From: Trissonchulus latispiculum
Taxonomy: Eukaryota; Nematoda; Enoplea; Enoplida; Ironidae
Direction: 5' to 3'
Assembly (NCBI GenBank): GCA_030248195.1
Contig: JASAND010011208.1
Coordinates: 32,031-96,030 of the forward strand
DNA length: 64,000 nt
The position numbers and the translations under genes were made by a program. Shown piece by piece: positions 3,431-64,000 of the stretch. Each line of letters starts with the position of its first letter. Position 1 is the first letter of the stretch. Below the pieces are notes generated by a model. That model saw only the letters and a list, made by a program, of their open reading frames with translations, made no database searches and was not told the DNA's origin.

Positions 3431-4011
3431 TCGCTAAAGATTGCATTTTAAATGCGAAAATCGGCCGAAAATAACATTTTGAGCCTAAAAGTTGAAAATT
3501 GACCAATAACCTGAATTTTGACGAAGAAATCGGTCCGATTTCTTAATTTGGTCGCGAAACTTGGTCAATCGTCGAATCTTCAGCATGAAAACGGAATTTT
3601 TGTTAGAATACGAATTTTGGGCTGAAAATGAAGTTTGAGCACAAAATCCAAAACTTACATCCAAAAACTTACTTCGGGTGTGGCCCAAACCATGATTCTT
3701 GCAGCGGATCGCCAGCCATTGAGCAGATCACCTAAAACAAACAAAAAATAAATGAACAAGCATAGAAACAGACACAAAAAGCACAAAAACAAGCAAATCA
3801 GAGACCGATTTGCTTGTTCAAATGCAGTTAGTTTCTCTCCTTTCGGAGAGGGGGCCGATCCCGACAGTGGTGCAGTGTCGGGCCAACCCTCGATGAGGTC
3901 CAGCAAGCTGGATCACCCATCAGTCGACCAAAAACCAGCAATCTCGTGAGGTCCGTGAACCTCATACCAGAGATTAAGCTGATAAGAACAGATACTACAA
4001 CACGATCATAG
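3044..4011 (+). repeat. 968-bp direct repeat, copy 2
   Basis: Second copy of 196-1163. It ends at 'CGATCATAG', after which the sequence becomes unrelated, whereas copy 1 continues into the element at 1155-1907. It includes the five-hairpin run (3789-3975). Confidence 0.85.
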
Positions 4012-4496
4012 GACTTTGTTTATTTCTAATGAGTTACTGCATACGGTACATAATACCAATACATACATAATAAGTACAGAAACTGTTCACCGCTAAATAG
4101 TTAAAAACAGGCCATTCATAATTGACAAACAACAATAAAGTATATTCTTGAACAATGCAATTTGAAATACGCGAATGACAATTAATACGTATATATAGTA
4201 GTAGAATATAAATTGACATTAAATTGACATTGACATTGACATTAACAGCCTAATTTTTAATTAATTTCATCAATTTCAGTTATTCCTTATGGAATCTTTG
4301 TTCATCTTTGTTCTTTTTCTTTCTGATTCTTCTGAAATGTAATAAGAAATTATTAATACAAAGTACAGCATAATATGTCACTACTCAGCTTAATCTAAAT
4401 CCCAACAAAATACAGTAACCAAAACTTAAAATATGGTCTAATTTCTATTTTAGCACATTAATTTAGAGTTGTCTCAGAAAGAAAAATATTTAAAAT
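4012..4496. other. Intergenic, no feature seen
   Basis: Unique AT-rich sequence. There is a short GACATT tandem around 4213-4244. No supported gene or repeat boundary. Confidence 0.5.
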
Positions 4497-5283: not shown

Positions 5284-5574
5284 CTGAAAATGTCCGCTGA
5301 TGTTTAGAAAATTTTCTTCATAAGCAGGAATGTTTGATTTCTAGAGCCAAACCTGTTTACAAACCCGAAATAAGATTGCACAAATTTCATGTGACGAAGC
5401 ACAAAACTAACAATCATAGGAAATCGAAATCACAGTCAAAAGGTCATAGAGAATCCAAGACATAATTCCCGTTCATACTGCTCTTTGAAAAAATTATACC
5501 AGGAAAACGAAACATTTATTTGAATTTAATTTCAAACTTAATCTTGTTGACTTGCAGTGAAAAGAAAAAATTTT
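5284..5574. other. Intergenic, no feature seen
   Basis: AT-rich sequence between the small gene and the tRNA-like element. Nothing recognisable. Confidence 0.4.
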
Positions 5575-5649
5575 GGATTCGGTGGGGCTCGAACCCACAA
5601 ACCCCTCTGACTCGGAGTCAGCCGTCAGTACCACTTGGCCATCGAATCC
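5575..5649 (-). tRNA. tRNA-Arg(CCG)-like gene at LINE 3' end
   Basis: Well-formed cloverleaf signals on the minus strand: a perfect 7-bp acceptor stem (GGATTCG / CGAATCC), A-box TGGCCAAGTGG, a perfect T-arm GTGGG-TTCGAGC-CCCAC (B-box GGTTCGAGCCC), and anticodon arm CTGA-CTCCGAG-TCAG. Read canonically the anticodon is CCG, that is Arg. It is followed by AAAATTTTTTC, which would serve as a Pol III terminator. It lies in the same orientation as the adjacent LINE, about 660 bp downstream of its ORF2 stop. It may be a functional tRNA, the LINE target, or part of the element. Confidence 0.6.
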
Positions 5650-6310: not shown

Positions 6311-9300
6311 TTAGTGATTTTTGAGCGCCAAAATTCCAAATTCGTTGAAATAAAAGGCCCCAAAGTCGCCTACTAACCCCCGGTGAATCGAAGCGTCTTC
6401 TAAAAAAGCGCCCGCATTTCTAGCAATTCTTCCGAGAGATTTTATAAAAATGTCCCAAATATTAACTGCAACTTTTGTTTTCCAAAATTGACTTCTGGTG
6501 AACCAAATGGCCCACTGGGCCTGATGAATTATTAAATTCAAATTTTTCAAAAGTTTAGGGTTTTTCCGAATAACAATTCCTAGTAATTTTTCGTGAGTTT
6601 CTAAATTTCTTTGCGCGAGTTGCCGTGATGGCCTCGCCACAACTTTAAGCAATTTTTCTACATTTTCCCAGAAGGATTTAATTCTGACACATTCCACGAA
6701 TGTGTGAATTAAATCCTCCGAAACCGAAATTCCCAAAGTTTCGCAAAATTCACAGTTTTCAGATAGCTGATTGTTCATTTGATGCAAACGTTTTTGCGTG
6801 AGCAAAACGTTGTGCACTAGCTTCAAATGAACATCTAGAGCTATACTTTCTACAAACTTAGTTTTCATGGACCCCCATAGGTATTCCCAGTCATTACCGG
6901 GAATACCTGGGAATTTTTCGGTCCACTTTTCAGCTATTTGATCTGCTCTTTTTCCGAATTTTTTCAAAATCATAGCTTCATAAATTTGTTTCATTCTAAC
7001 TGAATTTGGAGAAAATTGAACCGCCTCAATCGAGATCGAGTTAGGATTAATTTCCAAATCCAAAGTGAGCATAGCCTTTCGCAATTCCCTATAAAATTTT
7101 GGAACCAAAATCCGATTAAGTTGGCCAATAGATTTAGTTTCAACTTGTGCATAGAAATAGTCGAAAATTGGGTGCCAGGCTTGCGCTGCACCCAATTTTC
7201 GTCTAATCAAAATCACTAACCTTTGACTTAGGACTCTGAACTCTAGGTTCGGAAAGGCTATGCCCCCTTTGGTCTTGGGCAAAGAGGCACACTCTGAGTT
7301 GATGACCACTCTGTTAGTGACCGGATGCCAGATGTAGGTCTCCATTCTCTTCTTAAATTTGTCCATCAAATGTCTGGAGGGGCTGAGGAACCAGGTGGAG
7401 TACCAGAGCCCAGCCAAGTAGTAGGTCATCAGGCTGGCCACACGGGCGTAGGCTGATGACCTTACAGGCGGGATGGCTGACCCGATACCCTCCAAAATTT
7501 CCTCAAATTTTTCCTCGTTTTTCCAGTTTTCAATTCCTTCATCGTTAACATAAACACCAAAAACTTTTACTTCCGTTTTCAAAAATCTTTTCAAGTCTTC
7601 TGGAACTTCCCTTCTTTTGACTCCACTAACTAGAAGTAGAGCAGTTTTCTCTACTTTCAGCTTCCCTCCAGATATTTGCTCATAATTTTCGTATTCTTTA
7701 AAAACTTGTTTAACCGATTCAAAATTCTGTAAAGTGAAATTGGTGTCATCCGCATAGGCGGTGACCTTGTTTTCTCGGCCTAAAACTTTAATTCCACGAA
7801 TTAACCGAACTTTTCGAACATGATTTAAGAAAGTTTCATTACAAAGAACGTACAAAAGAGGGGAAAGTGGGCAACCTTGACGTATACCCCTTTCCAATTT
7901 GAACGGAAGGGACATATAACCGTTAATTAATAGTGAGCTCTGAACAAAATTTTTCTTATAGATGGATTTTACCCATCTCCTAATTTTCGGGCCGAAGCCA
8001 AATTTCTTCAATACTAGTTCTAAAAACTCCCACTCAACTAGATCAAATGCTGCCATTTGATCTACCGAGAGGAAAATGCACGGTTTCTTTTTGTGTGTAG
8101 CATAATCTAAAATTCCAATTAAACTCAAAATTCCATCTCGAATGTCCCTTCCGGAAACTCCGCAAGTTTGATCCAATTTTACCAAAAATGGCATAACGCC
8201 TGAAAATCGATTTGTTAATACTTTCGCAAAAATTTTATAGTCCACGTTCAGCATGCTGAGTGGACGCCAATTTTTCCTCTCCGACCTGTCACCTTTGCCC
8301 TTGTACAAAAGGGAAATGATCCCCATGTACATTTCCTCTGGCATTTTTCCAGTTTCTAAGATTATGTTGAAAATTTTTGCAAGCCATGGGGCACAAAGGT
8401 ACAGACAAGAGAGGTAAAATTCGATGGCAAGTCCGTCTTTCCCTGGAACTTTGCCCAGAGCAAATTGCTTAATTGCCTTTTCGACTTCTTCTGCCGTTAT
8501 ATCTGCTTCTAGTTCTGGCTGTGCACTGTCTGGTACAGAATTCTCCGTACTTTCTAGAAAAGCCGCGGCTTTTCTAGGATCTATGCCAGAACTAGTAAAC
8601 AAATTTTGATACTGTGATCTCATTTCAGAAATAATTTTCATATTTCCTACAACTTGGGTGCCATTTTCGGTTTTCAAAGAGTAAAAATACCGCTTTTCAC
8701 CCTCCTTTTTCTCAATCTTTTTAGCATTCAAAATTGAAATTGTATCATACAATTTTTCCGATTTGTGGGCTCTTCCCAGACTTTGTTCAATTTCTTTCAG
8801 CTCAATTTCACGTAAAATTTCTTTGACTTCATTTTGTTCAGTCAGATCATTTGCTGCCTGTGCATCCTTTAACCGGTCTTCCAAATTAGAAATTTCTGTG
8901 CGCTTTCTTTGCGCAATAATTCTACTGTGAAATTTAAACAGATTTTTCGCTTCCTTTTTGAACCACTTCCAATTCTCAAGTATTTCAGCTGATGTCTGCT
9001 GTTGTTCAAATAAAGTCTGAGCTTCAAAGCGTAGCTCTGCAAAATCAAGTGAAAAGAAAGGATCACTGAAAACTTTCGTGTTCATTTTCCAGTACGAAGG
9101 CCCCCGGGCCTGGTGAAATAAAGAATCGACAATTTTTGCCTTTAAAATAGAATGATCTGAAAATGAAACAGGAGCATAATCTATAGAAATAAAAGCTCCC
9201 AGATGCCGTTTTGCTACATAAATCCGATCTAGTCGACTTCGACAATTTTGATTAACACTTTTACAACTGAAATCCCTCTTTTTAGGGAATTTTTCACGGA

Positions 9301-9862
9301 AAACATCAACAAATTTATACTCATTTTGGATAATTTTGAGCTCGTTTCTACCTTTCGTAGCAATCATTAATGCATGATTGGACGTGGCCGTAGATTCTCT
9401 ATCTAACTTCAAATCGGGTACAAAATTAAAATCTCCACCCAGTAATAAAATAGAGTCGTTTTTAACTTTGCTTTTCAGTTTTTCCTGCAAAGTTTCGAAA
9501 AAACCAGATCTTCTTTCATACCTTGCAGGGGCATAAATATTAATAAGAAAGGCTACCCGATTTGAAATTTTTGCCTTTACAATTTGCATTCTACCTTCCA
9601 TTTCAAAAACCATATCAAAAGTTCCAGCCAACGTGTGGCTTACTAGGATACAGACTCCCCCACCTCTGTTAGCATTAAAGTACGAATGGAAAATCTTAAA
9701 ATTAGGACTCATCACTTGTTCAAAATAGGGGTCCGTGTTCATAAAATTTGTTTCTTGTATAAAAATTATGTTGTAATTTTGAACATTAATAAAAAGTTGG
9801 TCGACTTTAGAATTTCGATTCAGTCCATTCGCATTAATGCTAGCAAAGGTGATGGGAGCCAT
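6311..9862 (-). CDS. LINE ORF2: APE endonuclease and reverse transcriptase
   Basis: 1,183 residues starting MAPITFASINANGLNRN. The N-terminal third is an apurinic-like endonuclease: N in INANGL (about residue 12), E in IQETNF (37), GGDFNF (about 143) and the SDHS motif. The centre is a reverse transcriptase: GKGDRSERKNWRPLSMLN, motif A SVDQMAAFDLV, motif B RGIRQGCPLSPLLY, motif C AYADDTNF (about 701) and motif D GGKLKVEKTALL. The C-terminus has a Cys-His cluster CEFC...H..VEC typical of L1/Tx1 elements. In the target-primed mechanism the endonuclease nicks DNA and the RT copies element RNA there. No stops or frameshifts are present. ORF1 lies 44 bp upstream, and the start sits in 'GAGTCATGGCTCCC', shared with copy 2. 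Base composition is AT-rich, unlike ORF1. Confidence 0.95.
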   Translation of the reverse strand: MAPITFASINANGLNRNSKVDQLFINVQNYNIIFIQETNFMNTDPYFEQVMSPNFKIFHSYFNANRGGGVCILVSHTLAGTFDMVFEMEGRMQIVKAKISNRVAFLINIYAPARYERRSGFFETLQEKLKSKVKNDSILLLGGDFNFVPDLKLDRESTATSNHALMIATKGRNELKIIQNEYKFVDVFREKFPKKRDFSCKSVNQNCRSRLDRIYVAKRHLGAFISIDYAPVSFSDHSILKAKIVDSLFHQARGPSYWKMNTKVFSDPFFSLDFAELRFEAQTLFEQQQTSAEILENWKWFKKEAKNLFKFHSRIIAQRKRTEISNLEDRLKDAQAANDLTEQNEVKEILREIELKEIEQSLGRAHKSEKLYDTISILNAKKIEKKEGEKRYFYSLKTENGTQVVGNMKIISEMRSQYQNLFTSSGIDPRKAAAFLESTENSVPDSAQPELEADITAEEVEKAIKQFALGKVPGKDGLAIEFYLSCLYLCAPWLAKIFNIILETGKMPEEMYMGIISLLYKGKGDRSERKNWRPLSMLNVDYKIFAKVLTNRFSGVMPFLVKLDQTCGVSGRDIRDGILSLIGILDYATHKKKPCIFLSVDQMAAFDLVEWEFLELVLKKFGFGPKIRRWVKSIYKKNFVQSSLLINGYMSLPFKLERGIRQGCPLSPLLYVLCNETFLNHVRKVRLIRGIKVLGRENKVTAYADDTNFTLQNFESVKQVFKEYENYEQISGGKLKVEKTALLLVSGVKRREVPEDLKRFLKTEVKVFGVYVNDEGIENWKNEEKFEEILEGIGSAIPPVRSSAYARVASLMTYYLAGLWYSTWFLSPSRHLMDKFKKRMETYIWHPVTNRVVINSECASLPKTKGGIAFPNLEFRVLSQRLVILIRRKLGAAQAWHPIFDYFYAQVETKSIGQLNRILVPKFYRELRKAMLTLDLEINPNSISIEAVQFSPNSVRMKQIYEAMILKKFGKRADQIAEKWTEKFPGIPGNDWEYLWGSMKTKFVESIALDVHLKLVHNVLLTQKRLHQMNNQLSENCEFCETLGISVSEDLIHTFVECVRIKSFWENVEKLLKVVARPSRQLAQRNLETHEKLLGIVIRKNPKLLKNLNLIIHQAQWAIWFTRSQFWKTKVAVNIWDIFIKSLGRIARNAGAFLEDASIHRGLVGDFGAFYFNEFGILALKNH

Positions 9863-9906: not shown

Positions 9907-11526
9907 CTATTTCATCCGTTTGTCGGCCGACGTCTCGTCTTCGCTGGGGGTCAGCGGGCGCTTCTGGGAGGCTCCCTGCGGCTTCAGGTGCTCCTCCAGC
10001 TCCTTCTGGTACCTCGGCTGCTGGAGCATCTTGGTCCTCAGGTGGGTCAACATGTCCCCGAGGATGTTGAGGCCCAACCACTTCATAGGGTCTCCCAGCC
10101 GAGGGTCCTTCATGGATAGGCCGCTGCTCCAAAAGGTATCGTTCGGGTTGCACTCCACTAGCCGGTACCCCTCAGTAGCCAACAGTTGCAGCCGGGCCTC
10201 CCGGTTCTGCTCGAATTTGGCCGTGATCCCAGTGACCATGGCCTCGTACTTCTCCACTCTGGACCACTGGTCCACCTTCTCCAAATTAGTCCGAATTTTA
10301 CCCCCGAGTGCTTTGGCCATCTTAGGGGTGTCAGCCTTCAGGATCTTCTTGGCCGCACCCTTGTCCCCCATGCACTTCGCCTTCCTATAGAAGTAGAAGT
10401 GCTCGTTCGTGGGGTATTTCTTCCCGTTCACCTGGAATGGAGCGTCGTAATGATTGCTGAAGGGGTACCGGCTAGTAAAGAAGGGAGTCACATCGTTCCC
10501 GAACTGCTCAGCATACTGACCCCGTTTGGCCTCCATGATCCCAGCCCAGTTCGGGTGTTCGGATTCCATGGTCTCACCCTCCTCGTCGTCCTCTGTCAGG
10601 TCCGTGACACTGTGGGTGGGGGACCCTTCTTCCTCGGCCGACGAAATGGCGTCCCGGAATTCACCAGAGGACCGTCTGCTGGTCTCGGCCCGACCCAGGG
10701 TTTCCATCCCTTCTTCGTCCACCTGTCCGCCTTCAGATTCTGACCCCACATAGGCACCGTCCGGGGTGGGTTTGGGGGGAACCGTCTCCCACCTCCGACC
10801 CCGTGGGTTGTTGGACCCGGGCCTCGGGATTGCCTCCTCATTCTTGCAGTCTCTCCTGTGGTGGCCCTCCTGGAAGCAGCGGAGGCACCACTTGCCCCAG
10901 TTGGGATACCAGATTTGGACCCGCTGGGGGAAGCCCACACCCTCTGGGAGGTAGGGGGCGTACCCAGGGATCCGCCTCATGTTCTCCACCTTAACCAAGA
11001 CTGATCTGCCGCCATCTCTAATCGGGGTTCTCCGGCCCGAGGGGGTCCTATGGTAGGTCCACCGGAAAGGGCTTGCCACCTCGAACCCCAGGGACCGGAT
11101 CCACCTGGTGACATGGGCCTCCGAGTCTGAGATAGGGATGTCATAAAGGAATATGGGCTGGAGGTGGAGACGCCTCCTCTCCTCTTCCCGGGGGACCTCC
11201 AGGGGGGCAAGGACCTGTCCCAGCTTCACCCCCTGATCCACCGCCCGGTCCCTCTGCTCCTTCGTCTGGAAGGTGAGCTTCAGATGGCCCCGCCCAGCAC
11301 GCCTGACGTACTGGGGGTAGCTCTGCTCCTGATTGTTTTCGACCAGCAGCTCGATCAGGGTACCGATCGATTCCTCGACATACTCGTCGGGAATGACCAG
11401 GTACCCTGTCTTCTGCAAAAGTTCTAACCTCGCGTTTTCCGCTGCATCTGTCCGTTGGCTCAGCGTTGCTTCGTCCTCATCGGTCGGATTTGGATTGGCC
11501 AGGGGATCGCCGTTAGGCTCACCCAT
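9907..11526 (-). CDS. LINE ORF1: RRM-like, zinc knuckle and NADAR domain
   Basis: 539 residues. Residues 1-90 are acidic. Residues about 95-215 are the RRM-like part usual in L1/Tx1 ORF1 proteins, with VRIRYP-like 'QRVQIWYPNWGKW' just before one CCHC knuckle CLRCFQEGHHRRDC (about 217-230). An acidic, Ser-rich linker follows. Residues about 345-502 match the NADAR family (YbiA type): YPFSNHYDAPF, YPTNEHFYF, W..VEKYEAM, TAKFEQNREARLQLLATEG, NPNDTFWSSG, GLNILGDMLTHLR. The family's conserved E of [ST]EH, the W, K-F-x-Q and N-D-x-x-W are present. NADAR proteins are known as N-glycosidases, including removal of ADP-ribose from guanine. A role in the retrotransposon is inference. The gene is GC-rich. 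The start was chosen because 'ATGGGTGA' is conserved in copy 2. Confidence 0.92.
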   Translation of the reverse strand: MGEPNGDPLANPNPTDEDEATLSQRTDAAENARLELLQKTGYLVIPDEYVEESIGTLIELLVENNQEQSYPQYVRRAGRGHLKLTFQTKEQRDRAVDQGVKLGQVLAPLEVPREEERRRLHLQPIFLYDIPISDSEAHVTRWIRSLGFEVASPFRWTYHRTPSGRRTPIRDGGRSVLVKVENMRRIPGYAPYLPEGVGFPQRVQIWYPNWGKWCLRCFQEGHHRRDCKNEEAIPRPGSNNPRGRRWETVPPKPTPDGAYVGSESEGGQVDEEGMETLGRAETSRRSSGEFRDAISSAEEEGSPTHSVTDLTEDDEEGETMESEHPNWAGIMEAKRGQYAEQFGNDVTPFFTSRYPFSNHYDAPFQVNGKKYPTNEHFYFYRKAKCMGDKGAAKKILKADTPKMAKALGGKIRTNLEKVDQWSRVEKYEAMVTGITAKFEQNREARLQLLATEGYRLVECNPNDTFWSSGLSMKDPRLGDPMKWLGLNILGDMLTHLRTKMLQQPRYQKELEEHLKPQGASQKRPLTPSEDETSADKRMK

Positions 11527-11718
11527 AATGGAATCAAAGGAAAGCCTTTATCCCACTAAGGAGACTCAGGCTTGTTGGGACACAGGATAGTCCACCAGTA
11601 GAAAATAGGACCAAGGGAAGTAATCAGAATAATATAATCAGTTAATAAATCCAATCAATAAGCAATTAAATTAAACTAACCGCGCATACACATCGATCGG
11701 AGCCAAGAAGGCGCGAAG
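11527..11718 (-). other. 5' untranslated region of LINE copy 1
   Basis: On the minus strand, sequence such as ATTGCTTATT, CTGATTACTT, GGACTATCCTG and CCTGAGTCTCCTT..GGGATAAAGGCT is matched by the sequence upstream of ORF1 in copy 2 (56290-56423), so it belongs to the element. An internal promoter is expected here for this class but I cannot point to one. Confidence 0.6.
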
Positions 11719-12501
11719 CGATCATAGCCATTTACGGCGATGAAGCGATAAAACGGCCATTTCGCTGATTTCTTAAAAAGCCTGGGCCAGCCAAGCCAGG
11801 CTTCCAGATGAAACCTGAAACAGGGATGCAGCAGCCCCACTGTAGTTATATATACGTTGGACGACACTTAGGCTAATTGGCCCTAAGATCTTAGAATATG
11901 GGACTTTATCTCTTCCACCCCCCGGAGGAGGGGATTCCTCCTGCTTTTGCCCTTTTTTCCTGATGGTAAGCGCGAATCTGCGAAAATGCCCAATTTCGGC
12001 GAAAAATGGACGATTTCCGCCGAAACTGGGCATTTTCGACCAATATTGGCCAACTTTGGCGGTGGTGGCGGAAGTTGGAAAAATTTGCCAAAAGTTGAAA
12101 GATTTTGTGGAAAAAGATGGAAATTGCCGAAAACCAAACTAATATGAGGGAAACAGCAAATATTGAGCGGGAAAACTGACCGAGAATCGAAATTTGAACA
12201 ATGTAACAACATTAAGGTTAGAATCAGAAAAGTTGGTCCGAAATCTGGATTTGAACACGGAAATCAGTCAATTTTAGGATTAGGTGTGCAAAAACAGTGT
12301 TTTACTGCAAAAAATAATAAACTTACTTGATTATGTAAAACAATTTTAATTAAGAAACACTTCCTGTTGAACATCCGCAAAACTAATGCGGGGATAGCGC
12401 AGCGGTTCGATTCTGGCCTCTCACCCGGCCGGTCAGGGTTCGATTCCCGGTGAAATGGCCAAATTTTGTTATCGCTTCATCGCCGTAAATGGCTATGATC
12501 G
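11719..12501 (+). mobile_element. 783-bp element with 33-bp terminal inverted repeats
   Basis: Begins CGATCATAGCCATTTACGGC (11719) and ends with the exact reverse complement of its first 33 bases (12469-12501). The interior is the same as 1155-1907, including the tRNA-like sequence. No coding capacity. No clear target-site duplication (left flank GCGCGAAG, right flank TGTTGATT). It abuts the 5' end of LINE copy 1 in the opposite orientation. Because the copy at 1155 lacks the right terminal repeat, the inverted repeat may have been added secondarily rather than being a transposase-recognised end. Confidence 0.7.
12388..12460 (+). tRNA. tRNA-like sequence (repeat-borne)
   Basis: Same as 1824-1896, with A-box TAGCGCAGCGG and B-box GGTTCGATTCC. 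It forms the 3' part of the TIR element and is followed by CCAAATTTTGTT and then the inverted terminal repeat. Confidence 0.6.
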
Positions 12502-13598
12502 TGTTGATTTAAGCGTTAGGCGCAGCAATTGCCCACCTGTGTTGGCGAAAGAATGGACGAGTTTTAACTAGACTTTTATTTCAACTTTTTGACTTATTGA
12601 GAAAAGCATGTTGTTTAGAAGCTGATTATGCTTGATTAATTCAAGAACGAAATAACAAACAAATTGAGACTAAAGCCCAAAATTGTCCAAAATCTATGAT
12701 AGCCGAGGGCGAATAGAATTCAATGGGGGAGTCTAGAGAAACGACCTTTTTGTCAAGGGCGAGCAGAAATTCAAAAAAGGTAATTTAATGGAACGGAAAA
12801 GGGGGATAAGAGAGGGAGGGGGGATAGTGTGGGGGGGGGGGACCCCCCCCACAATGACATTTTTCGGCCCCCCCCCCCAGATTTTAGAAAGTAAGCCCCC
12901 CGGGAGGAGGAAAACGATAGGTTAAAGGGCGACCCCCCCCCCCCCCCCAGATGACAGGGTGGGAGTTCCCCCCCAGGCAGGAGAGCGGACCCGGCACCCC
13001 CCGGGGCCAGGAAAAATTTGAAGTAGGAGGTGATAAAATATAAAATAGTTTAAGAGTGTAGGAAAAGGGTGGGAAAATATTGGGAGGGGAGGTTGGAGAA
13101 GTGAATGAGGTGATTGGGGATGTGGCGTGATGGTAGATTGGGGAGGGGGGGGCAAAATGTTAGAGAACCGTTACACATATGCGTAGGTGTACCACTTATT
13201 TTGGTTTGGGCTGGTTTTAAAAATGTTTAGTTTTTTGACGTTTTTACCGAAAACTGTTATTTCTAGCCATTTTTTTATTTTTTCTAAAATTTTTAAAAAT
13301 TGCCCAAATTTTGCAACAAATTTTCATTTTTCTTGTTTGGACCCAATTTTAGGGGATAGAGGTCTGGCCTTCTCGTGGGGGGTTTCACCGGGGGGAGGCT
13401 GTAGCCTGGCACACCATTTTTATATTACGTATCATATATTTATTTCCATGTAATTCTAGACGTATATCTTTTTACCCAGCCAGCAGCCTCCACTACCTGC
13501 GCCCGTGTTTGTTGAAACACGTGGGGTTGAGTGCCAGAAGCAGGTCGCTGGCTGCGGCAGCATATATATGCTTCTGAGCATGCCATACGCACCTACAG
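12502..13598. other. Intergenic with long G and C runs
   Basis: No gene recognised. Notable are several homopolymer runs of 8-14 G or C (about 12829-12960), some paired as G-run then C-run, next to generic AT-rich sequence. Short open frames here are produced by these runs. Confidence 0.5.
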
Positions 13599-56423: not shown

Positions 56424-58091
56424 ATGGGTGAACCTCCGGGTGATCCCCAGGCCAACAACAGAACGGAAGAGGAAGAAATCGATGACGATGAAGCGACGAA
56501 TCGAAGAACAGAAGAGGCCGAGAATGCGAGGTTGGAGGCGTTGGAGAAGACGGGATTCCTACTGATCCCGGACGAATACGTGGAGGAGTCCATCGGGACG
56601 CTCATCGAGCTCCTGGTGGACAACAACGAGGAGCGGTGCTTCCCGGAATTCGTCCGGAAGGCTGGGAGGTACCACCTCAGGTTAACCTTTGGGTCCAAGG
56701 CGCAACGGGACAGGGCGGTGGCTCAAGGTGTGAAACTGGGACAGGTGTTGGCCCCATTGGAGGTCCCACGGGAGGAAGAGCGGCGGCGGCTTCGGCTGCA
56801 GCCGATCTTCCTCTATGATATCCCAATAACGGATTCGGAGGGGCACATCACCCGGTGGCTCCAGTCCCTGGGCTTTGAGGTGGCCAGTCCCTACCGATGG
56901 ATGTACCACAAGACGCCTTCAGGGAGAAAAACCCCAATCAGGGACGGTGGTCGATCGGTTTTGGTGAAGGTGGTCAATAACCAGAGGGTCCCTGGGTACG
57001 CCCCCTACACCCCGGAGGGCATGGGCTACCCACAACGGGTCCAAATTTGGTACCCCAATTGGGGCCGGTGGTGCCTTAGGTGTTTCCAAGAGGGCCACTA
57101 CAGGCGGGAATGTGAGAATTCGGAGGCGATCCCTCGGCCCAGGCAGGGGGTCCCACGGCCGAACCGGCGCTGGGAAACCGTCAACACCCAGTCAATCCCG
57201 GAGGGTGCCCACCCTGGGACGTCCACGGACAACGGCGGTCAAGGCGGCGAAGGCGGTCCCTCCACGGACGAGGAGGGAATGGAGAATCTGGGGAGGCCCG
57301 ATTCGAGGCGGCGGAGCCGGGACGGTGACCAGTCCACCGAGTTCGGGGACGCCATCTCATCGGTGGACGAGGAGGAGAGGTCCGAGGTGATGGACCTCAC
57401 GGAGGAGGAAGAGGCAGGGAAGCCCCAGCCCACGGGTTCCCCCACCCAGGCTACGGATTGGGAGACCTACCTGGAGTCCCTCCGGGAGGAATTCGGGGAG
57501 GCCTACGAGGATCAGGTGGTCCCCTTCTATACCCTACGGTACCCTTTCAGTAACCATTTTGGGGCCGGGTTTAAGCTGGAGGGTGAGGATTTTGCCACCT
57601 CAGAACATTTTTACTTTTGGAAAAAGGCTAAGGCCATGGGGGATGATAAGGCGGCCCCTCTCATCCTGGGTGCCCAAACTGCTAAGGAGGCGAAGGCGGC
57701 AGGGGGAAAGATCCGGACGGACGCCAAAAAGATGGTGCACTGGACCAAGAAGGGCAAGTACGATGCCATGTGGCAGGGGGTCTGCGCCAAGTTCGAACAG
57801 AACAAGGCAACCCGCCTGTGCCTCCTGGAGACCGAGGGAAAGCGGCTGGTGGAGGCCAACCCCAACGACACTTTGTGGAGTTCGGGAGTGGCCATGAACG
57901 ACCCTAGGGTGGTGGACCCATCGAGGTGGCTGGGGAAGAATGTCCTCGGGGACATGCTGACCCTTCTCCGGGAGAAGATGCTGGTCCAGACCCACTACAG
58001 GAAGGAGTTGGCGGCCCATCTGAAGCGGACGGTGAAGAGGCCCCGGACCCCGAGCGAGGAGGAAGCTGCTGCGGACAAGCGGCTGAAGTGA
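56424..58091 (+). CDS. LINE ORF1: RRM-like, zinc knuckle and NADAR domain
   Basis: 555 residues. Order as in copy 1: an acidic N-terminus, an RRM-like region (FLYDIPITDSEGHITRWLQSLG ... YPQRVQIWYPNWGRW), CCHC knuckle CLRCFQEGHYRREC at about 217-230, an acidic linker, then NADAR at about 368-516: RYPFSNHFGAGF, ATSEHFYFWKKAK, WTKKGKYDAM, CAKFEQNKATRLCLLETEG, NPNDTLWSSG, GKNVLGDMLTLLREKM. The E of SEH, the W, K-F-x-Q-N and N-D-x-x-W are kept although the flanking linker has diverged completely, which points to selection on the domain. Expected role: nucleic-acid binding and RNP formation. The NADAR activity, if any, would act on an N-glycosidic ADP-ribose-type substrate. GC-rich, with a long shadow frame in 57926-58174 that I do not regard as a gene. 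Confidence 0.93.
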   Translation: MGEPPGDPQANNRTEEEEIDDDEATNRRTEEAENARLEALEKTGFLLIPDEYVEESIGTLIELLVDNNEERCFPEFVRKAGRYHLRLTFGSKAQRDRAVAQGVKLGQVLAPLEVPREEERRRLRLQPIFLYDIPITDSEGHITRWLQSLGFEVASPYRWMYHKTPSGRKTPIRDGGRSVLVKVVNNQRVPGYAPYTPEGMGYPQRVQIWYPNWGRWCLRCFQEGHYRRECENSEAIPRPRQGVPRPNRRWETVNTQSIPEGAHPGTSTDNGGQGGEGGPSTDEEGMENLGRPDSRRRSRDGDQSTEFGDAISSVDEEERSEVMDLTEEEEAGKPQPTGSPTQATDWETYLESLREEFGEAYEDQVVPFYTLRYPFSNHFGAGFKLEGEDFATSEHFYFWKKAKAMGDDKAAPLILGAQTAKEAKAAGGKIRTDAKKMVHWTKKGKYDAMWQGVCAKFEQNKATRLCLLETEGKRLVEANPNDTLWSSGVAMNDPRVVDPSRWLGKNVLGDMLTLLREKMLVQTHYRKELAAHLKRTVKRPRTPSEEEAAADKRLK

Positions 58092-58131
58092 TCCCTGAGA
58101 TGTCCCCGGAGCTGTGGTTTTGTTTTGACTC

Positions 58132-61100
58132 ATGGCTCCCCTTACCTTTGTTAGCATTAATGCGAATGGGCTGAACAGAAATTCAAAGGTTGACCAACTT
58201 TTCATTAATGTTCAAAACTGTAGCCTGGTTTTTATACAAGAAACAAATTTCATGAACAACAACCCTTATTTCGAACAAATCATGAGCCCGAACTTTAAAA
58301 TCTACCATTCGTACTTTAATGCTAACAGGGGTGGGGGAGTATGTATTCTAATTAATCATACGCTCGCGGGTGTTTTCAATTTGGTTTTTGAGGAGGAAGG
58401 GAGACTTTTGATTGTAAAAGCAAAAATTTCGAATCGAATTGCTTATTTTATTAATATTTACGCGCCGGCCAGGTTTGATCGGAGACCGGCTTTTTTCGAA
58501 AATTTGCTAGAAAAACTTAAACAAAAAGTGTCAAATGACTCAATTCTGCTTTGTGGAGGTGACTTTAACTTTGTATCTGATTTGAAACTTGACAGAGAGT
58601 CTACGGCTAGTTCAGCTTCGGCTATAATGTACACTACGAGAGGGAAAAACGAATTTAAAATTCTTGCAAAAGAGTTCGGATTTGTTGACGTTTTTCGAGA
58701 AAAATACCCAAAAAAGAAGGAATTTAGCTGTAAAAGTGTTAATCAAGATTGCCGTAGTAGATTGGACAGACTTTATGTCGCAAAACGGCATTTAGGTGCT
58801 ATTATATCTATTGACTATACCCCTGTTTCCTTTTCAGATCACAGCATCATGAAAGCTAAAATAACTGATTCTCTTTTCCATCAAGCCCGAGGGCCTTCCT
58901 ACTGGAAAATGAACACAAAAGTTTTTTGTGATAATTTCTTTTCAGAGGATTTCGCAGAACTGCGTTTCGATGCTCAAGAATTGTTTGAACAATCGCAAAC
59001 GCATGATGAAATTCTCGAAAACTGGAATTGGTTTAAGACCGAAGCGAAAAATTTGTTCAAATTCCATAGTAGAGAAATCGCTCATCGAAGGCGTTTAGAA
59101 ATTTCAAAATTAGAGGATCAGTTAAAAACAGCTCAGGCAGCGAATGATCTAATTCGGCAAAATAACATCCAAAACCTTTTGAGAGAACTTGAACTTAAAG
59201 AAATTGAACAAACTTTGGGGCGCGCTCACAAGTCTGAACAGCTCTATGATGTAATTTCAATAGTGAACGCTAAAAAGATTGAGAAAAAGGAGGGCGAAAA
59301 ACGATATTTTTATTCCTTGAAAAATGAAGCAGGGGCTCAAGTCACAGGAAATATGGCAATTATTTCAGAAATGAGGTCTCAATATCAAAATTTGTTTACT
59401 AGTTCTGGCATAGATTCAAGAAAAGCCTTAGCTTTTCTTGAAAGTACAGAAAATTCTGTACCTGATAGCGCGCAGCCAGAACTAGAAGCGGAAATTACAG
59501 CAGCAGAAGTTGAGAAAGCAATTAAACAATTTTCACTTAAAAAAGTCCCTGGAAAAGATGGACTCACTATCGAATTTTATCTCTCATGCTTGTACCTAAC
59601 TGCACCTTGGCTCGCGAAAATTTTCAATCTTATTTTAGAAACAGGAGCCATGCCAAAGGACATGTACATGGGAATTATTTCCCTTTTGTACAAGGGCAAA
59701 GGTGACAGGTCGGAGAGGAAAAATTGGCGTCCACTCAGCATGCTGAACGTGGACTATAAAATTTTTGCTAAGGTTTTGACAAATCGACTGGCTACTGTTA
59801 TGCCAATTTTGGTAAAATTTGATCAAACTTGTGGCGTAAGCGGAAGAGATATTAGAGACGGAATTCTAAGTTTATTAGGAATTTTGGACTATGCAAAATA
59901 TAAAAAGAAAAACTGCATTTTTCTGTCAGTAGATCAAATGGCAGCATTTGATCTAGTTGACTGGGAATTTCTCAAATTGGTTTTGAAAAAGTTTGGCTTT
60001 GGCCCAAAAATAAGGAGATGGATAGGATCCATCTACAAGGAAAATTTTGTTCAAAGTTCTTTGCTAATTAATGGATATATGTCGCTTCCGTTCAAATTAG
60101 AAAGGGGTGTTCGACAAGGATGCCCGCTTTCTCCACTTTTGTATGTTCTCTGTAATGAGACTTTTCTAAATCATGTTCGAAATGTTCGATTAATTCGTGG
60201 AATTAAAATTTTAGGCAGAGAAAATAAAGTCACCGCCTATGCGGATGACACAAATTTTACTTTGCAAGATTTTGAATCTGTTCAACAAATTTTCAAAGAA
60301 TATGAAAATTACGAAAATATTTCTGGAGGGAAGCTAAAAGTAGAGAAAACAGCTCTACTTTTAGCCAGTGGTTTCAAGAGGAGGGAAGTTCCCCAAGAAC
60401 TTAAGCAATTTTTGAAACGGGAGGTCAAAGTTTTCGGTGTTTACGTTACGGAAGATGGGATAGATAATTGGAAAAACGAAGAAAAATTTGAGGAAGTTTT
60501 GGAGAGTTTTGGGTCAGCCACCCCTCCTGTGAGGTCATCAGCCTATGCCCGAGTGGCCAGCCTGATGACCTATTACTTGAGTGGACTTTGGTACCTCACC
60601 TGGTTTGTAAGCCCCTCCAGAAATATTGTAGACAAATTTAAAAAACGAATGGAAAGTTACATTTGGCATCCAGTCAATAACAGAATTTTGATAAATTTTG
60701 AGAGCGCCTGTTTGCCTAAGACTAAGGGGGGCATAGCCTTCCCAAATATTGAGGTTAGAATTTTAAGTCAAAGATTGGCAATTTTGATAAGGCGGAAGTT
60801 GGGGTCGGTCCAGGCTTGGCACCCAATTTTTGACTATTTTTATGAAAAAGTGGAAGGAAAACCCGCTAATCAACTTTATAGGATTCTAATTCCTGATTTT
60901 TATAAGGAAATAAGGAAGGCTATGCTTAATCTTAGACTAGAAATTAATCCAAATGTAATTTCAATCGAAGGTGTTCAAAATTCGGCGGAGACTGTAAAAA
61001 CTAAGCAACTTTATGAGGCAATAATTTTGAAAAAGTTTGTAAAAAGAGCGAATTCGATTGCTGAAAAATGGACTGAAAAATTCCCAATTATTCCCAGAAA

Positions 61101-61683
61101 TGACTGGGAATATATTTGGGGGTCCATGAAAACAAAATTTGTAGAGAGTATACCTTTAGATGTTCATTTGAGACTAGTGCATAACGTTTTGATCACTCAA
61201 AAACGCATGCATCAAATGAACAATCAAATTTCCGAAAATTGTGAATTTTGTCAAATTTCTGGAATTTTGGTTTCAGAGGATTTAATTCACACATTCGTAG
61301 AATGTGCAAGAATTAAATCCTTCTGGAATAGAGTGGAAATTTTGCTTAAAATTGTGTCTAGACCATCTCAAATTTTAGAAAATAGAAACCTACGAGCGCA
61401 TGAAAAATTGCTTGGACTTGTGGTCAGGAAAAATTCGAAGCTTTTGGGCAATTTAAATCTCATCATCCAGCAGGCTCAGTGGGCCATCTGGTTCTCTAGA
61501 AGTCAATTTTGGAAATCGAAAAATGTGGTAAACATTTGGGACATTTTCGTAAAATCGTTGGGGCGAATTGCCCGAAATGCGGGGGCATTTTTGGACGATG
61601 TTTCAATCTGCAGAAAATTAGAAGGCGACTTTGGAATTTTCTATTTGAATGATTCGGGAATTTTGACTATGAAAGAAGACTAA
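58132..61683 (+). CDS. LINE ORF2: APE endonuclease and reverse transcriptase
   Basis: 1,183 residues, the same length as in copy 1, starting MAPLTFVSINANGLNRN. Endonuclease motifs INANGL, IQETNF, GGDFNF, SRLDRLYVAKRH and SDHS; reverse transcriptase motifs KNWRPLSMLNVDYKIFAKVL, SVDQMAAFDLVDW, RGVRQGCPLSPLLY, AYADDTNF (about 702) and GGKLKVEKTALL; C-terminal Cys-His cluster CEFC...H..VEC. No stop or frameshift. The ATG lies in 'GACTCATGGCTCCC' 40 bp after the ORF1 stop. AT-rich, in contrast to ORF1. Confidence 0.95.
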   Translation: MAPLTFVSINANGLNRNSKVDQLFINVQNCSLVFIQETNFMNNNPYFEQIMSPNFKIYHSYFNANRGGGVCILINHTLAGVFNLVFEEEGRLLIVKAKISNRIAYFINIYAPARFDRRPAFFENLLEKLKQKVSNDSILLCGGDFNFVSDLKLDRESTASSASAIMYTTRGKNEFKILAKEFGFVDVFREKYPKKKEFSCKSVNQDCRSRLDRLYVAKRHLGAIISIDYTPVSFSDHSIMKAKITDSLFHQARGPSYWKMNTKVFCDNFFSEDFAELRFDAQELFEQSQTHDEILENWNWFKTEAKNLFKFHSREIAHRRRLEISKLEDQLKTAQAANDLIRQNNIQNLLRELELKEIEQTLGRAHKSEQLYDVISIVNAKKIEKKEGEKRYFYSLKNEAGAQVTGNMAIISEMRSQYQNLFTSSGIDSRKALAFLESTENSVPDSAQPELEAEITAAEVEKAIKQFSLKKVPGKDGLTIEFYLSCLYLTAPWLAKIFNLILETGAMPKDMYMGIISLLYKGKGDRSERKNWRPLSMLNVDYKIFAKVLTNRLATVMPILVKFDQTCGVSGRDIRDGILSLLGILDYAKYKKKNCIFLSVDQMAAFDLVDWEFLKLVLKKFGFGPKIRRWIGSIYKENFVQSSLLINGYMSLPFKLERGVRQGCPLSPLLYVLCNETFLNHVRNVRLIRGIKILGRENKVTAYADDTNFTLQDFESVQQIFKEYENYENISGGKLKVEKTALLLASGFKRREVPQELKQFLKREVKVFGVYVTEDGIDNWKNEEKFEEVLESFGSATPPVRSSAYARVASLMTYYLSGLWYLTWFVSPSRNIVDKFKKRMESYIWHPVNNRILINFESACLPKTKGGIAFPNIEVRILSQRLAILIRRKLGSVQAWHPIFDYFYEKVEGKPANQLYRILIPDFYKEIRKAMLNLRLEINPNVISIEGVQNSAETVKTKQLYEAIILKKFVKRANSIAEKWTEKFPIIPRNDWEYIWGSMKTKFVESIPLDVHLRLVHNVLITQKRMHQMNNQISENCEFCQISGILVSEDLIHTFVECARIKSFWNRVEILLKIVSRPSQILENRNLRAHEKLLGLVVRKNSKLLGNLNLIIQQAQWAIWFSRSQFWKSKNVVNIWDIFVKSLGRIARNAGAFLDDVSICRKLEGDFGIFYLNDSGILTMKED

Positions 61684-61886
61684 TTTGGAAAAAAATGTTA
61701 AAAGAAGGAGGTTAAGAGCTATAAAGGTAAAATTTTCAGGAAATTTTAAAATATTTTGAAGGTTCGAGTTCCTAAGGGGGGCCCCCGAATAGCCACCACC
61801 CTCCCAGTTCCTAAAATCTCAACTCGATATCTATTAATGAAATTTAAAGGGGGTACATTGTGATAATAATGGAAACTTTTAATTTT

Positions 61887-62174
61887 GCGACTAGGTCGCT
61901 ATTCATAGAGCAATGCTGGGGGCCCAATCCCGCAGTTTCTGGGCGGCTGTAAATTGTCATCCGGCGGCAAATTGGCAGATTTGCCGCCGGGTAGGTCTAT
62001 CAGATTTGTCATCTGGCGGCAGAAGTGGTATTTCTGCCGCCAGGTAAGTCTCAGGTCATCCGGCGGCCAAGCCAGCAAAAAGGCTTGCCGCCGGGTAGGT
62101 CCCAAATAGTGCAAATTCCGGCCAGTGCCGGCACAGAAATAAAATGTAAGGCCGCCCGTTAAAAAACGGGCGGC
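61887..62174 (+). other. Tandem hairpin array in 3' region of LINE copy 2
   Basis: 61887-61899 (GCGAC / GTCGC) is the counterpart of a hairpin in copy 1. Then come three tandem modules, each 'GTCATC' + hairpin + 'GGTARGTC': 61961-61990 (CCGGCGGCAAA / TTTGCCGCCGG), 62013-62043 (CTGGCGGCAGAA / TTCTGCCGCCAG) and 62060-62094 (CCGGCGGC..AAGCC / GGCTT-GCCGCCGG). They are followed by 62118-62131 (CCGGC / GCCGG) and 62151-62174 (GCCGCCCGTT / AACGGGCGGC). Compensating differences between the first two stems (CCGG/CCGG versus CTGG/CCAG) support a selected structure. Further ATGCAG-type short inverted repeats follow to about 62370. Confidence 0.75.
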
Positions 62175-62615
62175 GGCAATCCATAAAATTTCGGCCAGCA
62201 CATAAAACAATTTGGCCGCCTAAAACAGAATACAGAATAAAATAAACTCTGCACTTTTCAAGATAGGAAAAATGCAGAAAATATAAGGAAAAACAATGAA
62301 ATTCTGCACGTCCTGAAAAGAAGAATGCAGAAAATCCAAAATGATAAAAAATTTTATCCTGCATTTTTATAGGGCAAATGTAGGGAAACCTTTTTCAGCA
62401 GTTAAAAAGTAAACAAGCAGTCATACGACTGCACCTGACTAAGTAGATGCAAAGACAGGCAACATTGAAATTTGTTGCACACTTTTTCGCTTCGGTTCGC
62501 TGAGCAGTCTAAAATCAATAGACTAGCTCAGTCTAAAAAGTTAATACACACCTTTCTCGGCAAGTCACAAAGACTGCCGAAACAGGAAACGAAAGCCTTG
62601 ACAGACTTCAAAGAA

Positions 62616-62686
62616 GCCGCGTTGGCGCAGAGGCAGAGCACTCGACTCTGAATCGAAAGGGGCGCGGATGCAATCCCACCAGCGGC
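62616..62686 (+). tRNA. tRNA-Gln(CTG)-like sequence at LINE 3' end
   Basis: 71 nt with A-box TGGCGCAGAGG and anticodon arm TCGA-CTCTGAA-TCGA (anticodon CTG, Gln, if canonical, with one mismatched pair). The acceptor GCCGC / GCGGC is partly mispaired and the T-arm is damaged (GGATGCAATCC). Followed by CAAAATTTTTCTTTC, closely matching the tail after the tRNA-like sequence of copy 1. Same orientation as the LINE. Probably not a functional tRNA. Confidence 0.5.
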
Positions 62687-62729
62687 CAAAATTTTTCTTT
62701 CAGAAAAGTTTTGGCCGCTGTTGGGATTG
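62671..62729 (+). repeat. Foldback of the tRNA-like 3' half
   Basis: 62671-62698 (CAATCCCACCAGCGGCCAAA...) is followed after three bases by its near-perfect reverse complement 62702-62729, so the 3' half of the tRNA-like sequence plus its A/T tail is duplicated in inverted orientation. Confidence 0.8.
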
Positions 62730-64000
62730 GACACACCAAACTAAAATTAAACGAATTTAACATCTATAATGAATGGAGCGAAAAAGTAGATTCTAAGAAA
62801 ACAATGATATTTTCGAATTTCTAAATTCTACTGACCTAAAGATGAAATTTTTATCGTATTTATAAGCAAGACTTTCTGCACAACTATTAGCCTTAGACTC
62901 TCAAAGTTAAGCAGTTTATTGGCATGTTTTTTGCATTGTGATTCCTTGTTTGTGCTGCTTGTGTCCAATTTGATGGTTATCTCGACTACAATTTAATTTC
63001 ACTACACCATTTATTTCAAGGAGCAGCAAAAGGGTGGAAATTTAGAAATTAAAATTCCCAATTTCTGAAGCAATTTCTTTTGTGAACTGGCTGAATAGCC
63101 AGAGTACCCATGCGGCCTGTGATTTTTCTAGTCTTGCTTTGTATGTAATTTGCATAACTGTTATGATCGGCGTTTATTTTGCATTTGTTCCAAAAACCGT
63201 GAAATTCGAAAACTAGAACTGAATTGGCAGAGAATCGAAAACAGGAATCTTCTAGAAGACAACTAGAAATTATTCTCCAACACCTTTCTAAAGGAAATAA
63301 ATTGGCTTGCCAAAACTAAGGCTTTGATCACCAAAATTAAATGGAAAATGATAGTCCGAATTACTCAGTATTTAAACCAAAGTATGTATATAATATATAA
63401 CCTGTATTTATTGTGTTCCAGGTAGTCAAAAGAGGATGCCAACAGTGAAGTGAAGAATAACTGGATCAAATCTCGATATCAAATTAAAATTATCATCCTT
63501 CTTTTGAACTTCTCAAGAGTAGTTGGCATTCTTAAAAAATGCATTTTTGTTATTGTTGGAGCGTTTTCTGCGGAAAAATAAATGAATTAATTATGATAAA
63601 ACTTACTGCAAATTTTTTCAGTTGTCTTCTTTAATTCAGTGCTGTTTGCTTGTGCTAGCTTGTGCGTATTTTTGTGAAATGTAAGTTGTAATTTTCAGTC
63701 TGTTTTAGCAGAAATCGCACGATTCATGGGGAAAGAAAAATGATGGATCAAATCTCCAACAAATTTTTTACGAAGACAAATTAAAACAAAAATTTGGAAT
63801 AAATTTTTCTCTAGTTTTTTGAATTTTTCTATTGATATTGGCCTGTAATGCATTGAAATTAAACAACATGTTATATGAAATATTTGTGATTTATGCTTTC
63901 TATGCCTGGAATTATATGTGCTTGTCATTGTATGGTTTGTGAACAGTAATCCACTTTTGTATCGTATGCCGTAACTGCGTTAAAAATAAACAAAGTCGTA
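62730..64000. other. Intergenic, no feature seen
   Basis: AT-rich unique sequence to the end of the window. No supported gene or repeat boundary. Confidence 0.45.

Follow-up and report, generated by a model that had tools for sequence, protein, structure and literature searches.

The window, meaning the whole 64,000 nt stretch of DNA analysed, derives from a 734-Mb assembly (G000) and contains two copies of a LINE retrotransposon. Copy A, on the plus strand at 56424-61683, is composed of ORF1 and ORF2. The former (56424-58091) is an open frame of 555 aa, which could be aligned over its full length with 21 other ORF1 proteins; its conserved N-terminal part (aa 41-235, 56544-57128) contains a CCHC knuckle, C217-C220-H225-C230 (57072-57113), that is invariant in all 22 of the aligned sequences. 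The match of this protein to the Pfam zf-CCHC_2 profile (E 0.0018) was under the profile's cut-off, and the N-terminal part is probably RNA-binding. ORF2 (58132-61683), encoding 1183 aa, starts 40 bases after ORF1 and matches Pfam profiles for an AP-type endonuclease (aa 8-237; Exo_endo_phos, E 1.5e-9) and a reverse transcriptase (aa 529-770; RVT_1, E 6.1e-30). With two ORFs, both of these activities in ORF2 and a CCHC knuckle in ORF1, the copies have the organisation of APE-type LINEs. The 3' UTR of copy A (61684-64000) finishes with AAATAAACAAAGTC, which is similar to the 3' end of copy B and coincides with the end of the contig. A tRNA-like stretch is visible by eye within this UTR, near 62615-62690.

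Further along ORF1 of copy A is a NADAR domain (aa 366-520, 57519-57983), with the catalytic residues E394, K401 and E477. The Pfam profile PF08719 matches residues 373-519 (57540-57980) with an E value of 8.1e-29 and 101.4 bits, relative to a cut-off of 35.1, and the sequence also matches both E. coli YbiA (2b3w, E 1.1e-7) and the bacterial NADAR 8bau (E 1.2e-6). The initial annotation had identified such a domain from its sequence pattern, and the FSN, SEH, W, KFEQN, NDTLWSSG and GKNVLGDML motifs are indeed all present. It had also called for both ORF1 proteins in the window to be compared with the NADAR profile; that of copy B gives an even lower E value (1.3e-33), and these values rule out a chance match. 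The domain had been placed at the C terminus of ORF1, and it does lie near there; however, it is followed by a tail of around 30 residues (KRPRTPS...DKR, 57999-58088), which is possibly a nuclear localisation signal, although this function is a guess made from the sequence alone.

Copy B, on the minus strand (11526-6311), is as open as copy A. Its ORF1 (9907-11526) encodes 539 aa, with the NADAR domain (PF08719, 117 bits, cut-off 35.1) at residues 352-500 (10027-10473), and its ORF2 (6311-9862) is again 1183 aa long. The two copies are 65% identical in ORF1 and 81% identical in ORF2, and synonymous sites are near saturation; on this sequence divergence, they are members of distant subfamilies. 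A tRNA-like gene was detected by ARAGORN at 5574-5649 on the minus strand, and is absent from the list of Rfam matches at gathering score.

Copy B is surrounded by pieces of a U2 snRNA gene, which had escaped the initial annotation. One uninterrupted U2 gene lies elsewhere in the window, on the minus strand at 997-1185 (Rfam RF00004, 111.9 bits). Directly 3' of the end of copy B, and on the same strand, nt 23-189 of this gene are found with 100% identity at 3845-4011, within an Rfam U2 match at 3845-4035 scoring 90.6 bits. Upstream of copy B are U2 nt 1-31, also 100% identical (11719-11749, minus strand), and between this piece and the LINE is a second, differing U2-like 5' end (11689-11718, minus strand), of the same type as the head found upstream of the copy at locus L043. 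Such a second U2-like 5' end inside the first would be expected from a source transcript initiated at the start of a different U2 gene, and we infer that this double head suggests transcription from a U2 promoter. A further U2 5' end (nt 1-36) is present upstream of copy B in inverted orientation (12471-12506, plus strand).

Searching the assembly with the N-terminal part of ORF1 gave 115 matches from 340 candidates, 113 of which were scored. Forty distinct copies were read (loci L010-L054), comprising the best 30 of the 115 matches and ten others. The NADAR domain is present in 39 of these, in some within a broken or cut frame, which rules out a one-off fusion and answers the proposal of the initial annotation that related LINEs be searched for it, at least within the same genome. 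The exception is the copy on contig C16157 (L032/L050), the ORF2 of which is frameshifted as well. Full-length or nearly full-length ORF1 frames numbered 28 distinct sequences of 493-577 aa; on the basis of their open frames, 22 of the copies read were included in the ORF1 alignment and 24 in the analyses of residues, phylogeny and dN/dS. Using the NADAR domain of copy A as the query gave at least 150 matches from 1365 candidates and, among those listed, seven are on one strand of a single contig, C1314, spaced 6.1 to 7.7 kb apart. Amongst proteins, a search with the whole of ORF1 found one NADAR-plus-macrodomain protein (P0001) among 8000 candidates scored, and searches with the NADAR domain, both as a region and alone, found no relative.

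NADAR domains are much repeated in this genome beyond the LINEs: a first look returned 2478 candidates, and all 150 of those scored were above the Pfam cut-off. The best six loci (L001-L006) are virus-like DNA elements; in L001, a Pox_A32-type ATPase match lies beside the NADAR gene, as do, by reading, a TATA-binding-protein-like ORF and a capsid-like ORF, the latter being without a Pfam match. At L007 and L008, a frame of around 690 aa has a C-terminal NADAR domain (E 2e-41), preceded by a region that is 3'-5' exonuclease-like by eye and has no Pfam match. Another observation from this assembly is a COX1-like stretch with broken frames (L127, C17523:28493-29676), which reads best with the invertebrate mitochondrial code and is probably a nuclear copy.

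When 75 NADAR sequences were placed in one tree, all 24 LINE domains grouped as a single clade (support 100/100), on a long stem (1.93), the bootstrap being not fully settled. This clade is separate from the 45 viral sequences and from four further NADARs that belong to other elements of the same genome, the viral sample being a selection from 72 loci, with L057 left out for a stop codon and L073, L082, L087, L099, L104 and L113 left out untried. The same groups are recovered whether the tree is built from the N-terminal part of ORF1 or from NADAR. One clade, and matching groups for the two parts of the protein, show that the domain was gained once within this genome's set of elements and then inherited with ORF1, with which it travels.

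The domain is also under purifying selection. Across 13 pairs with a whole-ORF1 dS of 0.10-0.9 (Nei-Gojobori method), dN/dS was 0-0.13 in the NADAR domain and 0.02-0.14 in the N-terminal part, whilst that of the linker was 0.07-0.43 and above the NADAR value in each pair. Between copy A and L011, for instance, the NADAR domain has 49 synonymous changes and five nonsynonymous changes. Nine closer pairs have few changes and erratic ratios, the NADAR value reaching 0.28 in a case with one change of each kind, and for copy A against copy B, a comparison with saturated dS, the ratios were 0.25 for NADAR, 0.36 for the linker and 0.07 for the N-terminal part. This pattern rules out the domain being a decaying passenger.

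The association with small RNA genes seen at copy B extends to much of the family. BLAST with the intact U2 and U3 genes placed a U2 head ahead of ORF1 in 13 copies and a U3 head, reaching as far as nt 32, in eight. When further U2-like variants were added, 18 of 38 copies had a U2-type head just upstream of ORF1, eight a U3-type head and 12 neither; to be called, a head had to outscore the best of 100 shuffles of its own flank by 5 or more, and the two copies of L053 were left out of these counts. Five of the seven head sequences had been read from the flanks of copies, and the match is circular for those copies. The headless set includes copy A with its close kin L010-L015, as well as L024, L037, L038, L045, L046 and L054; L037 and L038 are cut by contig ends, with fewer than 190 bases upstream, and L046, also scored as headless, has a U2-like stretch around 650 bases upstream. 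At L045, the same 15 bp of an unrelated target stand at both ends (1037 and 8611) as a direct repeat, and the copy is in neither U2 nor U3; hence the targeting is not universal. As judged from their flanks, many of the LINE copies are nevertheless inserted in U2 snRNA and U3 snoRNA genes.

All eight U3-headed copies fall within the L029-L036 group, and the U3-inserted subfamily comprises L029-L036, L050 and L051, on contigs C15046, C173 and C16157. Two U3-headed copies, L035/L051 and L032/L050, terminate at U3 nt 15, and of the 14 U3 matches in the genome a further two, both on C15046, coincide by coordinates with expected LINE 3' ends. The break points in the two genes look alike, the empty gene having GATC, then TGT, then AGTAT in each case, and this similarity may explain a switch of target. 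No target-specific LINE for U3 was found in the literature searched, which covered few subscription journals. Further tRNA-like genes were detected by Rfam or ARAGORN in or near LINE copies at L041 (7222-7294), L043 (2375-2435), L044 (645-716 and 2337-2410), L034 (3626-3698) and L053 (6094-6166).

The evenly spaced copies on C1314 represent an older branch, the ORF1 of one of them (L129) being 32% identical to that of copy A in an alignment that spans almost the entire protein, including the NADAR domain. Between two of these tandem copies lies a 2.4 kb interval, L128 (L128 and L129 are at C1314:36600-40400). It takes in the last part of an ORF2, a short RNA gene and the beginning of the LINE that follows. 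Rfam matches this RNA gene weakly to nematode SL1 (27.7 bits, E 0.034, compared with a gathering score of 75), and its predicted fold (z -3.83) has three stems, the last two being separated by a U-run. It has a 22 nt leader, GGTTTTAACCCATTTGATTCAG, which we take to be reminiscent of nematode leaders. The start of this following LINE is preceded by GGTTTTAACCCATTTGATTC, with the rest of the RNA gene picking up at CATTTGATTCAG/GTATG. On this one junction region, we interpret the RNA gene as a spliced-leader RNA gene interrupted by the LINE; that the other evenly spaced copies on C1314 lie in the same SL-like gene is a guess. Among 129 loci, the 20-mer at this junction has one further occurrence, at L047, where there is no Rfam match.

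Enzymes of the NADAR family remove sugar-nucleotide tags from bases. In the complex of the P. nicotianae NADAR with ADP-ribose, the distal ribose is held by E43 and E125 and the phosphates are contacted by K50, and the equivalents of E125 and K50 in the NADAR of E. coli C7 are required for hydrolysis (PMC11543638). Substitution E88A in the latter protein, which affects the equivalent of E43 and of E394 in the LINE, has a minor effect in vitro, whereas the Gln mutant is inactive; there was no rescue in cells with substitutions at any of the three positions, and Lys to Arg still works in vitro (PMC11543638). These positions were mapped onto the LINE domain through the spacing of 8bau, such that the P. 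nicotianae numbering was reached by count and not from the P. nicotianae sequence itself. By this mapping, E394, K401, E477, D482 and W485 correspond to E43, K50, E125, D130 and W133, and all five, as well as W440 and K424, are present in each of the 24 aligned LINE sequences, which consequently all have the catalytic Glu and Lys, along with a last-strand Glu of the YbiA type. The same catalytic residues are found in the older C1314 branch.

The residues that grip the remainder of ADP-ribose are altered, both of the contacts expected of a NADAR at R79 and Y84 being lacking from all 24 LINE domains. At position 428, equivalent to the pyrophosphate-contacting R79, these have G, D or E, and at position 433, equivalent to the adenine-stacking Y84, none has an aromatic residue. 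By comparison, R or K is present at the first position in 44 of the 45 viral NADARs and F or Y at the second in all 45; the same holds for the four NADARs of other elements in this genome (R or K, then F or Y), and YbiA keeps the Arg and is without the aromatic. In addition, the first Gly of the WGxG motif is Ser in all 24 (WS[SC]G), whilst the C1314 branch keeps Gly. Judged by alignment, the catalytic centre hence looks intact and the adenosine grip looks remodelled. Loss of the R79 and Y84 equivalents means that the substrate may differ, and that activity on ADP-ribosyl-guanine may be lost; the substrate is probably a related or trimmed adduct, not plain ADP-ribosyl-guanine.

The interpretation to which we incline, at a little short of an even chance, is that the domain is a retained N-glycosidase within the LINE ribonucleoprotein, acting on an altered substrate. 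Copies of the U2, U3 and SL types would rely for transcription on the promoter of the gene in which they sit, and the LINE RNA would accordingly carry 5' sequence of the small RNA at its start. This RNA would be coated by ORF1p, which would bring the N-glycosidase into the ribonucleoprotein, where it might remove a ribosyl-type adduct from the RNA, the cDNA or the nicked target DNA, allowing reverse transcription to run through. Counted in favour of a retained enzyme are the Pfam E values, the presence of the domain in 39 of 40 copies, the invariant catalytic residues, the dN/dS values, the single clade and the U2 and U3 heads. Counted against it are the loss of R79 and Y84 in all 24 sequences (YbiA being also without the aromatic), the minor effect of E88A, the loss of the domain from the C16157 copy, the 12 of 38 copies that are headless, copy A included, and the insertion of L045 in another target. 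A further point against it concerns the source of any adduct: an exon-by-exon search of the assembly, which split genes may escape and which was positive in one of 14 control genomes, gave no match to DarT (PF14487), such that the partner expected from DarT-NADAR toxin-antitoxin systems was not found, and the 16 exon matches to PARP were counted alongside this absence.

Alternatively, the domain could serve snRNP biology by linking capped small RNAs, and the factors that bind their caps, to the LINE ribonucleoprotein, in the way proposed for nematode SNA-3 and the spliced-leader RNP; this would help the element to reach U2, U3 and SL genes or to process chimeric transcripts. This is possible, though on balance unlikely. 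The identity of the targets, including U2, U3 and an SL-like RNA gene, speaks for it, all three types of RNA being pol II transcripts with trimethylguanosine caps, as does the loss of the adenosine-grip residues. However, the choice of target by LINEs is usually ascribed to ORF2, 12 of 38 copies have a head of neither the U2 nor the U3 type, and the invariance of the catalytic residues suggests something beyond a tether. Furthermore, the likeness to SNA-3 is one of description and not of sequence alignment with the LINE NADAR, and the authors of the SNA-3 study note that its mutations may act via folding (PMC9303266).

Strict counter-defence, as put forward in the initial annotation, in which the domain would remove ADP-ribose placed by the host on guanine in the LINE RNA, cDNA or target DNA, seems improbable. 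It would account for the retention of the catalytic residues, and guanosine-ADP-ribose was hydrolysed in vitro by all of the NADARs tested, YbiA included (PMC11125620). There is also a bivalve connection, in that a clam DNA ADP-ribosyltransferase acts on guanine N2 (PMC11209040) and the sole earlier report of a LINE NADAR that was found concerns a bivalve (PMC12477816). Nevertheless, it is just the R79 and Y84 contacts kept in the viral NADARs (44 of 45 and 45 of 45) that all 24 LINE domains have lost, and DarT, as described above, had no match in the assembly.

An idea drawn from the same chemistry, in which we place little belief, is that NADAR is a eukaryotic reader or trimmer of the capped 5' ends of snRNAs: the trimethylguanosine cap, an N2-modified guanine with a polyphosphate, resembles the N2-ribosylated guanine with pyrophosphate that is a NADAR substrate. 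The LINE would then use the domain to handle U2-, U3- and SL-headed transcripts and thereby stay with its target genes, and SNA-3 would be the host counterpart. Least credible of all is that the domain merely binds nucleotides or RNA, without catalysis, and is retained for the assembly of ORF1p, as although the pocket is altered at R79, Y84 and the Gly to Ser change in WGxG (24 of 24, with the C1314 branch keeping Gly), the invariance of E394, K401 and E477 across branches, even where ORF1 identity falls to 32%, is difficult to account for in a domain with no enzymatic role.

The retained N-glycosidase that we favour can be set beside several known systems. E. coli YbiA and the DarT1-linked NADARs have in common with the LINE domain the NADAR profile and the catalytic Glu and Lys, the last-strand Glu being as in YbiA; the LINE domain differs in being fused to a retrotransposon protein, in lacking R79 and Y84 and in having WS[SC]G for WGxG. 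With regard to insertion site, Keno and Utopia are U2-targeting elements with identical 3' flanks, and downstream of Utopia, which is found in Phytophthora, U2 starts at nt 39 (PMC4640811). Keno, like the present family, is an AP-endonuclease LINE in U2 genes; the present family is not assigned to Keno itself, as the 3' flank of copy B takes up the U2 of this genome at nt 23, as opposed to nt 39.

The statement in the initial annotation that no LINE with a NADAR fusion had been described was mistaken. A single sentence in a 2025 report says that ORF1 of several Tx1 LINE families in Crassostrea gigas appears to hold a YbiA-family NADAR, and the same report describes a NADAR in the Pol of Ectocarpus Gypsy elements and suggests a role for such domains in processing RNA intermediates (PMC12477816). 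This was the sole report of a retrotransposon NADAR found in the literature, where other mentions may exist. Compared by description only, the oyster elements resemble the family of copies A and B in having a YbiA-family NADAR in ORF1; unlike here, the portion of that text available gives no residues, selection, phylogeny or target genes. The Tx1 label, if applied to the present family, comes from resemblance. The Ectocarpus Gypsy NADAR is also YbiA-family and retrotransposon-borne, but is located in Pol. Added here to the oyster report are the U2 and U3 heads and the SL-like site of the older branch. An enzyme domain from the field of ADP-ribosylation is maintained by selection on a retrotransposon, and what it does in retrotransposition is thereby open to experiment.

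The remaining comparison is with SNA-3, which has three NADAR domains and is essential for SL1 trans-splicing in nematodes (PMC9303266). By description, this is a NADAR protein working with a capped small nuclear RNP, encoded by a host gene with three such domains and no retrotransposon. Three facts that we have not seen linked in the literature consulted can be placed side by side: a NADAR domain on a LINE, the insertion of that LINE in genes for capped small RNAs, U3 included, and the NADAR domains of SNA-3.
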